From assembly GCF_020662265.1 (NCBI RefSeq), contig NZ_VEWM01000122.1, positions 1-64,000 of the forward strand: a stretch of DNA of 64,000 bases, in the 5' to 3' direction. Position numbers and translations under genes: made by a program. The number at the start of each line of letters is the position of its first letter. Position 1 is the first letter of the stretch. Source of the stretch: Psychrobacter sp. I-STPA6b (GTDB taxonomy: Bacteria; Pseudomonadota; Gammaproteobacteria; Pseudomonadales; Moraxellaceae). Of the stretch, positions 32,555-42,193 are shown piece by piece. The notes under the pieces are model-generated. The model did no database searches and was not told the DNA's origin. It saw nothing but the letters and a program-made list of their open reading frames with translations.

Positions 32555-33263
32555 GTGAGATTCCTTTTATATGATAAATTGAGTTATTTAAATAAAACGT
32601 TGGTTATCCAAGTTGGTTTTAAGCTTTATGTAAGTTCAATGCTAGGGGCTGATTAATACAATATGATTAAATGGTGATGATATTTTGGTGATGTTAGGGT
32701 CTGTTGAACATTCACCACGTTAAGCTAGTATTGATAAGGGATACAACTATTTTTTACTTTTGTGTAAAAATTGGCTGAATTTGTCTTCTGATGTTAATAA
32801 GCAGTGCGTTAATGAACTTGTTAATATCCTGCTGTTATTAACAAAAGCTACCTGCGCTCATTGCCTTGACTAAGTCACTGTTTATTAAAATCAGTATCTC
32901 AATTTTTCCTACAAAGTTGAATATTCAACAGACCCTAAGGTTAAACCAGTTGTGCTACAAAAAATTATCAATCTTCTGTGGCAATATGTATTTCATATCA
33001 TCATTTGTATGATGATTTGTCAACAGAAGTGATAGGGTATTTTTTATTATGGTTGTTTGTATTAAAAATTCAAGCAGGCTTTATCATAACTTCGGTCGTT
33101 TTTTGTAAAAGCAGGTGTGCAGTGGTTGGTGTATGATATGTTTAAGGTTAATCTATCATCTAAGTTTGTGATATGACAAATAGGTGTGCCAATCACTATC
33201 TAATAAACTGTTTAGATGATTTCACCCACTCTAAAGCCATGATAAAAGTTAGGTAATATACTT
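32555..33263. other. Intergenic region between phoH and ubiH
   Basis: 709 bases between divergent genes, holding MITE copy C (32697-32935). The remaining flanks are AT-rich with no supportable ORF, tRNA or hairpin terminator. The promoters of phoH-ybeY and ubiH must be here but could not be pinned down. Confidence 0.6.
32697..32935. mobile_element. MITE-like element, copy C (longest copy)
   Basis: 239 bp with ends gggtctgttgaac and ttcaacagaccc and TA on both flanks. It matches copy A throughout (gataagggatacaac, tttactttt, tgcgttaatgaact, ctgcgctcattgccttgact, tcaatttttccta) and contains about 40 bases more in the middle. No ORF of note. Confidence 0.8.
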
Positions 33264-37522: not shown

Positions 37523-38164
37523 ATGGATACCGAAATTATCAAAATTATATTGGCATTTGTGGTGCTAATAAACCCTTTTAGTGCATTGACACTATTTCTA
37601 GATTTGACTCGTGGTTACTCCATGCCAAGTCGACGTAAGGTAGCACAGATTTCTTGTCTAGCGATTTTTGTGACCATTGCCTTTTTTACCATTGCCGGTG
37701 AGACATTGCTAAAGGTTTTGGGTATTTCAATTGGCTCATTCCAAGTGGCGGGTGGTATTTTGGTCTTTTTGATTGCCATTAATATGATGAATGGTGAAGG
37801 TAACCCAGTGAAGCCTGACCAAGATAACTTTGATGTTGAGCATGTGCACGAAGTCATTCCCAGTACGGCATCAGCAGTTGTACCATTAGCTATTCCAATG
37901 ATGATAGGACCAGGTGGTATCTCAACTGTGATTATTTACTCATCACAAATATCTGGGTTATGGCGTGTCAGTGCGGTGATTATTGCTGGTTTTTGTATCA
38001 GTATCTTTTGTTATCTTTGTTTGATGGCAGCAGGGCGCATCAGTCGCTTCTTAGGGGATACTGGACTTAATATCATGAGCCGTATTATGGGGATGTTGCT
38101 GGCAGCAGTGTCGATTGAGATTATCGTCAGTGGTCTAAGAACAATATTTCCCAGTTTGCTATAA
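37523..38164 (+). CDS. MarC-family integral membrane protein
   Basis: A 213-residue protein with six hydrophobic segments and the MarC pattern LINPFSALTLFLDLTRGYS at the N-terminus and VPLAIPMMIGPGGISTVIIYS in the second half. The start at 37523 is set by gagg eight bases upstream; an upstream ATG at 37454 would add 23 residues. MarC proteins are of unknown transport function (the original link to multiple antibiotic resistance was withdrawn). Convergent with a LysE-type exporter. Confidence 0.9.
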   Translation: MDTEIIKIILAFVVLINPFSALTLFLDLTRGYSMPSRRKVAQISCLAIFVTIAFFTIAGETLLKVLGISIGSFQVAGGILVFLIAINMMNGEGNPVKPDQDNFDVEHVHEVIPSTASAVVPLAIPMMIGPGGISTVIIYSSQISGLWRVSAVIIAGFCISIFCYLCLMAAGRISRFLGDTGLNIMSRIMGMLLAAVSIEIIVSGLRTIFPSLL

Positions 38165-38202
38165 ACCCAAATATTAAACAAAAACCATCTATTTTTCAGA
38201 GC

Positions 38203-38805
38203 TTAGCCGTACCATAAGTGCCAAGCCAGATAAATCATTAAACATCCTACCAGTGCATCTAAAATATTCCATGCTTTGGGCTTGGCAAATAGTGGTGATA
38301 ATAGCCGTGCGCCATAGCCTAAAGCAAAAAAGAACATCACGGACGCACTGATAGCCCCAATTGTAAATAATATTTTATTATCTGCTCCTGTAGAAACCAT
38401 ACCAACCAATACCAACGTGTCTAAATAGACATGTGGGTTTAGCCATGTAAAGCCGAAGCATAATAATAAGGATTTTTTAAGGCTACTGACGACTTGTCCA
38501 TCTGCCATTAGTGCATGTGATTTTGTGATACTGGCATATAAACTTTGTAAGCCATACACCAATAAAAATATAGCACCACCAGCTTTAGCAAATGTTACCA
38601 GATTGGGATAGCGAGCAGTAATCGCCCCAAAGCCTGCAACCCCTGCTGAGATAAGCAAGGCATCAGATATTGCACAAAACAGACAAATTGCAAAGACATG
38701 CTCACGCTTTAATCCTTGCTTGAGAACAAACGCATTTTGTGAGCCAATAGCAAGTATAAGGGAAAAACTCAGCGCCCATCCAGAGATAAAGTCCGTTGGT
38801 ATCAT
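38203..38805 (-). CDS. LysE/ArgO-family amino acid exporter
   Basis: A 200-residue inner-membrane protein with the family signature LILAIGSQNAFVLKQGLKREHV near the N-terminus, CAISDALLISAGVAGFGA, and LLCFGFTWLNPHVYLDTLVLVG in the middle, features of ArgO and LysE rather than RhtB. It exports basic amino acids in characterised members. The ATG at 38805 is chosen over a TTG four codons upstream. No LysG/ArgP-like regulator is adjacent. Confidence 0.9.
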   Translation of the reverse strand: MIPTDFISGWALSFSLILAIGSQNAFVLKQGLKREHVFAICLFCAISDALLISAGVAGFGAITARYPNLVTFAKAGGAIFLLVYGLQSLYASITKSHALMADGQVVSSLKKSLLLCFGFTWLNPHVYLDTLVLVGMVSTGADNKILFTIGAISASVMFFFALGYGARLLSPLFAKPKAWNILDALVGCLMIYLAWHLWYG

Positions 38806-38989
38806 TCTGTTACTCAATCAAAAAGATAAAGTTGTTAAGATAAGATATGCAAAGCTGTTAAGCAAGTGATACAGTGATACTTTATCCTGATAATATCAGT
38901 CATTATTAGTAAGAAAACTATTGTAAAATGTAGTAATGCCCAAAACTATGGATATTATAAGTATATAAGTATGTACTAAAAGGGGATAT

Positions 38990-39790
38990 ATGGTCGTTAG
39001 TCTTAATAGAATCTTAAAGTCTTTTGGGCAGTCAGTGAGTGATGAGCAGACTGCTACTGGTAGTCATATGACACAAAGACCAGAGCTTGATTTACCACCC
39101 ATCCACTATCCGAGTACAGACTCCACTTCTACAGATACAGATATACATAACAAATCTTATCAACATACATTAGACGATGAACGAGCAAATACAGAGCGAG
39201 AAAATCAGACACTCAGAGCGCAACGAGTAAGTGATGCTGTCGCACAGGTTAATAATACCCAGTCGCCAACCCCTTTGACTGACCGCTATTTGTTATTACA
39301 AAAAAACCGTCGTTATCCACATCGTCCACCTTTTGATCCAGATACACTATGGACACTAAAACATGGAAAATGCCCAATTATGACAGAGTTAATCGATGTG
39401 GTAGATGAATCTACATTAAATGCGATGCCAATTGAAGCTGTTGCAATTCTTGATCGTATCAATCAAAAGTTACGTCGTTATCGTGAGTGGTCGCATGAGC
39501 TGAATGAAGCACAGGAAGACTGGGTTTGTGAAAAGCAATTTGTAATTGATAAATTAATCCGTGAAAGTATTCCAGAAGCACTACATCATTATGAGCAGTT
39601 GCTTCGGTTTAGCCCCTATCGTACTAAGAATAATAAGGTGCAGGGCAATATGACTGCGGGTGATATGTTAACTGATTTATTTTTAGAAATTGACTATGAG
39701 TTAGATGAGCTATTAGATGAATTGCATCAAACAGTTGTTAATCGTTTAGCATCGACTCATCGTTATGTTAAAAGTCGTACACAAAGCTAA
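38990..39790 (+). CDS. Uncharacterised protein, tandem paralogue 1 of 3 (soluble)
   Basis: A 266-residue protein with no membrane helix, a disordered polar N-terminal 100 residues, and two blocks shared with the next two genes: block 1, MPIEAVAILDRINQK (146-160), and block 2, IPEALHHYEQLLR (194-206) followed by TAGDMLTDLFLEIDYELDELL (222-242) and ending STHRYVKSR (255-263). The ribosome site aaaagggg is strong. The C-terminal pattern (P-E-x-x-x-x-Y, then helix with DxLL, then RYxxxR) slightly recalls helical proteins of the XpaC type, which I could not confirm. Function unknown. Confidence 0.75.
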   Translation: MVVSLNRILKSFGQSVSDEQTATGSHMTQRPELDLPPIHYPSTDSTSTDTDIHNKSYQHTLDDERANTERENQTLRAQRVSDAVAQVNNTQSPTPLTDRYLLLQKNRRYPHRPPFDPDTLWTLKHGKCPIMTELIDVVDESTLNAMPIEAVAILDRINQKLRRYREWSHELNEAQEDWVCEKQFVIDKLIRESIPEALHHYEQLLRFSPYRTKNNKVQGNMTAGDMLTDLFLEIDYELDELLDELHQTVVNRLASTHRYVKSRTQS

Positions 39791-39868
39791 TAGCTGGTAG
39801 CAGTGAGTGCCTTTATTCAACGTGAACAATAGACAGTAGTAATCAACGGTAACTTGTAAGGAAAAAAT

Positions 39869-40414
39869 ATGAGTCAAATGACAGCGATATTTTTGATGGT
39901 GGTTTTATATGGCATCTTGCCTGTTGCTGGCTTGTATTTTGGTTATCGCGGGTTTAAAAAATTAACAGCACCAAAAATGCTGGCATATAAAGCCATGCCT
40001 CAATTGGGTTATATTCCTGAAAAAAGTTTGCCAGATGACATCAAACTGACCTTAGAGCAGATAAATCAAAAAGGTGAAAAATTATGCCTTATCTATGGTG
40101 ATACCAATAATGATGGGGTGATTGATGATAAAGATACAGTAAGTGAAACCTATATCATGATAAAAAATATCATGGATAAACATATTCCCGAAGCCATTGC
40201 TGATTATCGCCGTTTAAATGATTTGGATGAAACCCGCACTAATACTAAAAAAATTAAACACTCTAATGTGACAGGTCGACAAGCGTTATTAGAAGTGTTA
40301 AATACAGTCAATACTCAGTTTGATGATTTGCTAGAGGCTTCATATCACCAAGACGGACAAAAACTTTTAGTAACCAATCGTTATTTACAACAGCGTTTTG
40401 ATAATCGAAGCTAA
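39869..40414 (+). CDS. Uncharacterised membrane-anchored protein, tandem paralogue 2 of 3, with EF-hand-like loop
   Basis: A 181-residue protein with one N-terminal membrane helix (about 6-25), block 1 LPDDIKLTLEQINQKGEKL (54-72), block 2 IPEAIADYRRLN (106-117), then TGRQALLEVLNTVNTQFDDLL (135-155) and NRYLQQRF (170-177). Between the blocks sits DTNNDGVIDDKD (78-89), a good calcium-binding EF-hand/dockerin-type loop that paralogues 1 and 3 lack. Ribosome site gtaagga. The membrane topology would leave the soluble part on one side of the inner membrane; which side is not evident. Confidence 0.75.
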   Translation: MSQMTAIFLMVVLYGILPVAGLYFGYRGFKKLTAPKMLAYKAMPQLGYIPEKSLPDDIKLTLEQINQKGEKLCLIYGDTNNDGVIDDKDTVSETYIMIKNIMDKHIPEAIADYRRLNDLDETRTNTKKIKHSNVTGRQALLEVLNTVNTQFDDLLEASYHQDGQKLLVTNRYLQQRFDNRS

Positions 40415-40452
40415 AAACCTGTTTTCACAAGATGCAATATCGTGCAATATCG

Positions 40453-40528
40453 GATTTTACACAAAAGTAAAATATAGCTATATTCCTTGTAACTATTAGT
40501 TTGGTGAAATAAATGTATAACAGAGCCT
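40453..40528. mobile_element. MITE fragment, copy D (reverse orientation, partial)
   Basis: Reading the minus strand, about 76 bases match the 5' half of copies A-C: an end like ggctctgttat, then ttcaccaaac, ttacaaggaatatagctatattttac. The other half of the element is missing. The TA flank is present after gcc at 40528. It separates tandem paralogues 2 and 3. Confidence 0.55.
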
Positions 40529-40542
40529 ATGGATATAGGCTC
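40523..40542. repeat. Perfect 8-bp hairpin between paralogues 2 and 3
   Basis: gagcctat-ggat-ataggctc forms a perfect stem with a 4-base loop. It starts in the last bases of MITE copy D. It is not followed by a T-run, so it is a transcript-stability or processing structure rather than a classical terminator. Confidence 0.6.
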
Positions 40543-40598
40543 TAAAAGGAAAAAAGAGCGGGAGAAATAGGACAGGTTTACGGAGTAATTAACAGTCT

Positions 40599-41246
40599 AT
40601 GTTGCTATTGACAAGTGCGGGTGTATTAACAGCTGGCGTGGTATGGTATTTAGGCAGAAAAGGCTGGCACGCATTCCATCATAGCGTTGGTATTCGTGTC
40701 GGGCAAGTGACATATATTGATGATACTCATGCCAGACAGCCTTATATCTTGCCACCTTTAAGCATATTAACCATTGATTCGCAATATTTGCAATACCTGC
40801 CTATAGAAATACTGGCACAATTACAGCGTATCGACAGTAAAACGCAAGCATATCAATCTGCTCAGCAAGGACTTGATATCAAGATAAATGAACGGGCTTT
40901 ATCGGTTGACACTGTGACAGAAGAAGCATTTGTGTTACAAAAGCTGATTTATGAGCGTTTGCCAGAAGTGCTTGCCAGACATCATGCCATTGCCCATCAA
41001 CAGGCACTACTGGCAATAAATACAGCAATAACAAATAATGTCTCAACAAAAAAGGCTGTGCCAGAGCAACAGCCTAGTAATCAAAAAAATCCTCAAAATA
41101 GCCTTTTAGAAGCATTAAATATTGTGCAGTCACTCTTGACTCGTATTGAAAACCTTTTAGATAAGTTAATGAGCCAATTTGAGCAAGCACAACTACACAA
41201 CCTAAAAGCCATGCAACGTTATCTTGATAGCCGTGATGAAGGATAG
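40599..41246 (+). CDS. Uncharacterised membrane-anchored protein, tandem paralogue 3 of 3
   Basis: A 215-residue protein with a short N-terminal membrane helix (about 2-18), block 1 LPIEILAQLQRIDSK (67-81), block 2 LPEVLARHHAIAH (121-133), a variable Gln/Asn-rich spacer (140-167), then LLEALNIVQSLLTRIENLLDKL (169-190) and MQRYLDSR (205-212). The spacing and order of blocks match the two upstream genes, so the three arose by tandem duplication. The best ribosome site (cggag) is 13 bases from the ATG, weaker than for its neighbours. Ends 20 bases from the convergent rluB. Confidence 0.73.
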   Translation: MLLLTSAGVLTAGVVWYLGRKGWHAFHHSVGIRVGQVTYIDDTHARQPYILPPLSILTIDSQYLQYLPIEILAQLQRIDSKTQAYQSAQQGLDIKINERALSVDTVTEEAFVLQKLIYERLPEVLARHHAIAHQQALLAINTAITNNVSTKKAVPEQQPSNQKNPQNSLLEALNIVQSLLTRIENLLDKLMSQFEQAQLHNLKAMQRYLDSRDEG

Positions 41247-41266
41247 TCTTTAGTCGCTATGTTTTG

Positions 41267-42193
41267 CTAACGGCTTTTATGTGCAGTACGACCACGGCGA
41301 GCTTTTAGTGGTTTTTTCTGAATACGTTCTTTTTTGCGCTTGGCGGCACCTTGTAGTCCTGTGCCTTGGCGAGGGCGCAAGTTAACTAAATCAGTCAGGT
41401 CATGAATCTCTTTTTTATCCAGCTCAATAAAACGCCCTGTGCGTAGCTCTTTGGGAAGGCTGACTGAGCCATAGCGAGTACGAAGTAATCGGCTAACCTT
41501 GAGTTCTTGTGATTCAAACAAACGGCGCACTTCTCGGTTGCGTCCTTCTTTTAGCTTAACGTGATACCACTTATTGACACCGCTACCACCGCCTTCTTGA
41601 ATATCATCAAATTTTGCCAGACCATCTTCAAGCTCAACACCTGCTGTCAGTTTACTGGCTATCTCAGGGGTCACATCACCGAGTACACGTACCGCATATT
41701 CACGTACAATCTCATTTGATGGATGCATTAAGCGGTGCGCCAGCTCGCCATCATTGGTAAATAATAACAGCCCTGTCGAGTTAATATCTAAGCGTCCGAC
41801 CATCACCCAGCGGTCATGGGTAAGTTTAGGTAGACGGTCAAAGACGGTGGGACGACCCTCTGGGTCATTGGCAGAGCAGATTTCCCCTTCAGGTTTGTAA
41901 TAAGCCAATACACGGCGACGTTTTTCTTTTTCGGGTTTATATTTAATCAGTCGACCATCCACTCGGATTTCATCGCCATGACTGACTCTGTCACCGATGG
42001 TGGCAGGGGTGCTATTAATAGAGACGCGCCCAGATTTGATGACCTCTTCCATCTGTCTTCTTGAGCCAAGCCCCATACGAGCAAGGGCTTTTTGCAGTTT
42101 TTCTGTGCCTGCTGTACTGGTTGGGGAAGTATTGCTCTCAGCGTTAGGATTGGAGTTTGGGTTGGGATGGGAATTGTTACTGTGTTCAGACAT
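41267..42193 (-). CDS. rluB: 23S rRNA pseudouridine synthase RluB
   Basis: Isomerises uridine 2605 of 23S rRNA. The 308-residue protein has a disordered Asn/Ser/Pro-rich start (1-28), an S4 RNA-binding domain (LQKALARMGLGSRRQMEEVIK), the catalytic region VGRLDINSTGLLLFTNDGEL with the active Asp, and the C-terminal RNREVRRLFES. A basic Lys/Arg tail ends the protein. RluB is preferred over RluE/RluF by length and S4 domain. It usually follows scpB; here the scp genes are 1.3 kb away and on the same strand. Confidence 0.92.
   Translation of the reverse strand: MSEHSNNSHPNPNSNPNAESNTSPTSTAGTEKLQKALARMGLGSRRQMEEVIKSGRVSINSTPATIGDRVSHGDEIRVDGRLIKYKPEKEKRRRVLAYYKPEGEICSANDPEGRPTVFDRLPKLTHDRWVMVGRLDINSTGLLLFTNDGELAHRLMHPSNEIVREYAVRVLGDVTPEIASKLTAGVELEDGLAKFDDIQEGGGSGVNKWYHVKLKEGRNREVRRLFESQELKVSRLLRTRYGSVSLPKELRTGRFIELDKKEIHDLTDLVNLRPRQGTGLQGAAKRKKERIQKKPLKARRGRTAHKSR

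Follow-up and report, generated by a model that had tools for sequence, protein, structure and literature searches.

Why would a bacterium keep three adjacent genes for small proteins that fall into no named family, and what could the three of them do together? This question is raised by C1, C2, and C3, which lie one after another in the window, the whole stretch of 64,000 nucleotides of Psychrobacter DNA that was analysed. An original prediction had read them as three tandem paralogs, one soluble and two anchored in the membrane, and as candidates for an undescribed system.

Three copies of one domain

The locus, with the two genes that border it, is made up of the following features:

LysE-type exporter gene, 38203..38817, minus strand: upstream synteny marker, outside the system; putative name, suggested by the sequence
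C1, 38990..39790, plus strand: 266 aa, no membrane segment; three-helix domain at residues 135-266 (nt 39392-39787)
C2, 39869..40414, plus strand: 181 aa, N-terminal membrane helix; three-helix domain at residues 46-181 (nt 40004-40411)
EF-hand-type loop of C2, 40100..40135, plus strand: residues 78-89, DTNNDGVIDDKD, between model helices 56-77 and 93-119
C3, 40599..41246, plus strand: 215 aa, N-terminal membrane segment; domain assigned by sequence, residues 57-215 (nt 40767-41243)
RluB gene, 41267..42193, minus strand: downstream synteny marker, outside the system; putative name, suggested by the sequence

The two bordering genes are those we take to encode a LysE-type exporter and RluB. The products of C1, C2, and C3 end in a common domain, some 130 residues long. 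Smith-Waterman scores for these domains lie 15.8 (C1-C2), 17.1 (C1-C3), and 7.1 (C2-C3) standard deviations above a background of 500 shuffles per pair, in which no shuffle reached the observed score. Comparison of the family profiles gives probabilities of 98.6, 99.3, and 98.0 for the same pairs, against 0.1-0.6 for controls with one side reversed. C1, C2, and C3 are old tandem copies of one three-helix-domain protein, and the predicted paralogy is thereby confirmed. The two conserved sequence blocks on which the prediction was built are both real; the pattern given for the first is broken in C2, which has K at a position specified as V, I, or L.

Structure prediction, which had been suggested as a check, reveals three common helices in the models of C1 and C2. 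The AlphaFold model of C2 has a mean pLDDT of 86.9 (89 sequences) and that of C1 a mean of 76.6 (58 sequences), and the three main helices of the domain span residues 56-77, 93-119, and 136-178 in C2 and 148-172, 179-207, and 223-264 in C1, the two models being compared by helix order and length, without superposition. The disordered N-terminus ascribed to C1 agrees with its model, where confidence is mainly low over residues 1-60 (block means 41-50) and fair for a helix at 59-88. Foldseek detects no match of the C2 model to the PDB at E <= 0.001. The best VIA-align Z scores against the PDB are 9.0 for C2, with designed three-helix bundles, and 9.4 for C1, a range that is uninformative for helical bundles, and BAR-domain entries score 8.4 for C2 and 8.6 (F-BAR) for C1, values that are common among such bundles.

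The copies differ in anchoring as predicted, with a best 19-residue hydropathy of 0.18 in C1 vs 2.26 in C2 and 1.66 in C3. An N-terminal hydrophobic segment is present in 56/56 C2 and 52/55 C3 homologs of one set, and every anchored homolog (56 + 52) carries a net positive charge after the segment. By the positive-inside rule, this charge would place the domain of C2 and C3 in the cytoplasm. Eight of 50 C1 homologs also have an N-terminal hydrophobic segment, namely six from Moraxella and two more for which the assigned start possibly lies upstream of the true one. Since the Moraxella C1 copies are anchored and most of those shown have, as read from their sequences, a C3-like G-I-x-x-G stretch next to the membrane segment, the C1 of Psychrobacter probably lost its membrane anchor.

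The loop of C2 was described from the start as EF-hand-like, and it is nearly invariant. Residues 78-89 of C2 fit the pattern D-x-N-x-D-G-x-I-x-x-x-D, which has the ligand positions of a canonical EF-hand. The pattern recurs in 55/56 C2 homologs of a first set, where the sole miss is the copy of M. atlantae, and in 62/64 of a second, overlapping set; it occurs in none of the C1 homologs (0/50 and 0/68) or C3 homologs (0/55 and 0/63). C2 resembles an EF-hand calcium loop in having 12 residues with canonical ligand positions between two model helices, but differs from it in that the loop is single and its twelfth residue is D rather than E. A search of C2 against Pfam returned no EF-hand match and only two unrelated matches below threshold. 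The loop may bind calcium.

Strand and spacing are the sole grounds for assuming that C1, C2, and C3 form an operon. Promoter and terminator scans gave results at or below chance, and an Rfam scan of 38000-42000 gave no match. Between C2 and C3, at 40455-40530, lies a dispersed repeat of about 75-80 bases with 27 matches elsewhere in its own genome by DNA search, one of them inside the window at 32695-32769 on the minus strand. Six aligned copies have 40 invariant columns, and a promoter-like match falls inside the repeat.

Distribution and history of the copies

Among 249 genomes of the family, matches to C1, C2, and C3 occur in 94, 96, and 92, respectively, counts that include cross-hits among the three, and for each query they are confined to two of 16 genera, which we take to be Psychrobacter and Moraxella. 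All three copies are present in 63 of the 68 loci fetched by similarity to C1, a set that is blind to loci without C1; the exceptions are four with C1 only, one of which lies at a contig end (L278, L300-L302, the first being the one at the end), and that of M. atlantae (L303) with C1 and C2. In a second set of 55 Psychrobacter loci, the trio is complete in 44, and 11 show C2 and C3 without C1, among them a locus truncated at a contig end (L092). In 53 of these 55 loci the next gene upstream is the LysE-type gene, and in 51 the next downstream is rluB; a single copy adjoining rluB is kept in three of six Moraxella loci. These counts uphold the claim of a retained tandem duplication with different anchoring, and the conservation check proposed with it finds the trio kept in most Psychrobacter loci and one or two copies in Moraxella. 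The multi-part complex suggested along with the duplication is a hypothesis. A search of plasmid records with C2 gave no match.

In a midpoint-rooted FastTree tree, C1, C2, and C3 each form a clade (support 0.93-0.97), and C1 groups with C3 (support 0.956). Since the copies separate in this way, the duplications are probably older than the split of Psychrobacter and Moraxella, and the losses later. One of the records with C1 only (L300, BMPS01000024.1, 31935 bases) is titled Streptomyces cinereus JCM 3040 and carries a C1 of the Moraxella type; it is probably a case of contamination or mislabelling.

The window's genome also encodes a fourth paralog, C4 (G000:C44:29191-29835), which was found elsewhere in the genome by a search with the trio profile (E 3.9e-6). 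C4 has the same layout as the trio genes, and the trio and C4 profiles match at 97.3. When 119 genomes were searched with C4, 13 gave a match, including six besides its own genome at E 1.1e-14 or better; the remaining matches have higher E values, and some of them are cross-hits to the trio. A weak match (E 0.007) comes from another genus, in genome G020. C4 relatives of 341-438 aa (L181, L182, L183, L184) have, by eye, an apparent second helical domain in the C-terminal half.

An unnamed protein family beside telA

The G020 gene is the last of a cluster in which telA (PF05816, E 2.5e-27) is accompanied by a 371-aa gene without assignment and by an SBP/VWA-type gene. A locus of the window's own genus (L235) has a similar row, in the order unassigned 385-aa gene, SBP/VWA gene, homolog of the trio domain, and telA; it was found through telA and is excluded from the unbiased linkage count. 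The L235 protein matched seven plasmid records, and telA lies nearby in three of the five that were examined (Sphaerotilus, Nonomuraea, and Variovorax), the Nonomuraea record being 11.85 Mb long and hardly a plasmid. The other two are a Deinococcus locus with a VWA gene and no telA, and a locus without either. The same protein had no match among phages. Among 319 genomes of the phylum, 13 were matched by a profile of six such telA-side proteins. This profile recovers C2 only in the window's genome (E 8.5e-7), where C1, C3, and C4 are not found by this back-search, and C4 and C2 in one further genome of the genus Psychrobacter; in the other 11 genomes TelA is encoded in the fetched locus in every case (11/11). 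telA is near the telA-side protein in 14/16 loci found by sequence and in 16/18 over all loci. Members of the family come from Pseudomonadota, with Deinococcus and an actinomycete among the records of the plasmid collection.

The trio matches the telA-side family at 94.3 with the profile of six sequences and at 97.1 (E 7e-11) with a profile of 18 sequences, which includes those six. Taken singly, C1, C2, and C3 score 90.0, 95.9, and 38.4 against the smaller profile and 97.1, 96.7, and 95.1 against the larger one. The alignment covers most of the domain at 15% identity. Seven neighbour families, used as negatives, gave at most 1.4, reversed alignments at most 0.4, and 30 column shuffles at most 0.6. 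The domain of the trio is thus very probably homologous to that of the telA-side family. Convergence of simple helical bundles, which would make the trio a family of its own with an unrelated function, is a quite improbable account of the likeness. Three-helix bundles are common, C3 alone gave a low score against the six-sequence profile, and the trio profile drew helical false hits in long proteins; but the alignment spans most of the domain, the controls remain at or below 1.4 against 94-97, and the back-search picks out only C2 in the window's genome. These false hits, with E values from 2.3e-4 to 0.0085, come from nine further genomes of the order, and both loci that were read encode what looks like SecA.

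The window's genome has a TelA (E 3.7e-89). Its gene is on contig C26 and the trio on contig C63; the trio is therefore a divergent homolog of the telA-side family and not part of a telA operon. The genes adjoining telA in this genome are, we assume, infC and thrS, and the 17 kb fetched around it hold no homolog of the domain. The telA-side proteins, such as those of Variovorax (WP_162570943.1) and Sphaerotilus (WP_244954573.1), both annotated as hypothetical, resemble the trio in the homologous C-terminal domain, in an N-terminal membrane part, and in size. They differ in being encoded near telA, several of them with an SBP/VWA gene, whereas the trio genes form a tandem triplet away from telA; in apparently having two membrane segments, as read from their sequences, rather than one; and, compared with C2, in showing no EF-hand-type loop that was noticed. 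Seven of the 18 telA-side relatives were searched against Pfam with no match at the cut-off, and two against NCBIfam with no assignment. In Variovorax sp. SRS16, the telA cluster (L325, 9640-14243) is followed at a distance of a few genes by a set annotated as Wadjet (Jet).

TelA itself is matched in 172 of the 249 family genomes, 168 of them over the cut-off. Among the Psychrobacter genomes listed, TelA is found in all but G108, a 300-contig draft in which C2 and C3 are matched, and C2 in all but G043. Among the Moraxella genomes listed, the six with C1 are the same six that have TelA. The joint presence of trio and telA in two related genera may reflect common descent alone. A homolog of the domain stands at only one of ten Psychrobacter telA loci (L235). 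In a further genus, probably Acinetobacter, TelA is matched in 70 genomes (66 over the cut-off) and the trio in none, and a scan of 18 telA loci, 11 of them from this genus, for the domain gave hits of E 0.29 or worse only. Several loci of the latter genus (L304, L305, L307, L308, L312, L313, L318-L320) have another kind of telA neighbourhood, in which a telA-type gene of about 376 aa is flanked on one side by the gene for a membrane-like protein (about 306 aa) and on the other by that for an unassigned helical protein (about 262 aa).

At the curated cut-offs of Pfam, NCBIfam, and PHROGs, C1-C3 have no match, and the weak hits below them disagree with one another; sequence searches of solved structures reached E 0.45 with C1 and E 0.15 or worse with the trio profile. 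The original label of an undescribed system stands in so far as no Pfam family is matched at cut-off, and has to be qualified in that the domain has an unnamed homolog for which telA is a frequent neighbour. Two candidates from Pfam were set aside as partial or coiled-coil-like: RapA_C, matched by C2 at a sub-threshold E of 0.025, and Osmo_CC, matched by 19/50 domain sequences (best 4.9e-5) in a scan without cut-offs shown.

What the trio may do

XpaC, a TelA-linked protein of Gram-positive bacteria, is a known partner of TelA, and telA is linked to surviving attack on the cell envelope. The original prediction had named membership of a known XpaC/TelA-type family as the finding that would speak against it, and this outcome is approached through the telA-side homology, whereas the direct test against XpaC failed. 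The telA-side family scores 35.0 against XpaC with six sequences and 77.7 (E 1.9e-5) with 18, the reversed control giving 2.7, so that a tie between the two families is likely but weak; it would connect the trio to XpaC only at one remove. TelA is encoded in three of four XpaC loci fetched. Direct membership of the trio in XpaC / Halogen_Hydrol (PF10112) could draw on this tie and on the one domain sequence of 50 that matches PF10112 (E 0.0084), yet C1-C3 have no HMM match, and the profile-profile comparison of the trio with PF10112 (ten sequences) gives 0.1. We rejected PF10112 as the family of the trio; as an explanation, direct membership is even slightly less probable than convergence. No protein passes the PF10112 cut-off in any of the 19 relatives' genomes (0/19).

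In one report on Listeria, lmo1966-lmo1967 are described as XpaC- and TelA-like genes in a putative operon, a telA-type mutant is reported to be more sensitive to nisin and tellurite, with a 4-fold rise in nisin susceptibility and a 2-fold change for tellurite given for disruption of lmo1967, and the function of TelA and XpaC in this organism is called not well established (PMC12791056). A study on Enterococcus gives a 7-fold increase of xpaC expression in a liaR mutant (PMC10269926).

The reading that we prefer, with a probability of roughly 55%, is that the trio is a triplicated and relocated TelA-partner-like scaffold of the inner membrane that serves tolerance of envelope stress. C2 and C3 would be held in the inner membrane with their three-helix domains in the cytoplasm, and C1 would attach to them from the cytosolic side by its own helical bundle together with the disordered tail. 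The resulting assembly would form a membrane platform at which TelA, encoded elsewhere, docks, a proposal made because of the homology to the telA-side family. Platform and TelA together would help the cell to tolerate stress on its envelope, and calcium at the EF-hand-type loop of C2 could steer the assembly. The computation establishes the homology, the three helices common to the models of C1 and C2, the conserved synteny, the telA linkage of the homologs, and the joint presence with telA; the topology, the hetero-assembly, the contact with TelA, the role in envelope stress, and the response to calcium are what we infer.

A bolder form of this proposal, which we consider unlikely, makes the trio a calcium-responsive TelA platform of the inner membrane, equivalent in Gram-negative bacteria to the XpaC-TelA envelope-stress module and equipped with its own sensor. 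Membrane damage would let calcium enter, the loop of C2 would bind it, the three bundles would rearrange, and TelA would be recruited to the damage. The most serious competitor, tentative but clearly ahead of this sensor, is that the trio descends from TelA-partner-like ancestors and now works without TelA, as a lineage-specific inner-membrane scaffold with its own clients, TelA acting alone. The unlinking of the trio from telA, the 15% identity to the telA-side family, and the two genomes in which one occurs without the other (telA without the trio in G043, C2 and C3 without a TelA match in G108) argue for such a parting. It is opposed by the near-universal joint presence with telA in Psychrobacter and in the same six Moraxella genomes, although common descent would suffice for that pattern.

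On the TelA-partner-like scaffold reading, triplication, unlinking from telA, and the calcium-type loop set the trio apart within its kind. TelA genes are widespread, and a telA-side partner family is now indicated for them whose seven tested members match no Pfam model at the cut-off. In Psychrobacter, one branch of this family appears to have given rise to three copies that differ in anchoring, and one of them, C2, has a likely calcium loop. Among the papers of the library searched, none contains both Psychrobacter and 'toxic anion resistance'. The genome G043 of the genus Psychrobacter, a single contig of 2.7 Mb, has telA and no match to C1-C3, with no homolog of the domain beside telA; it is a natural loss and useful for comparison.
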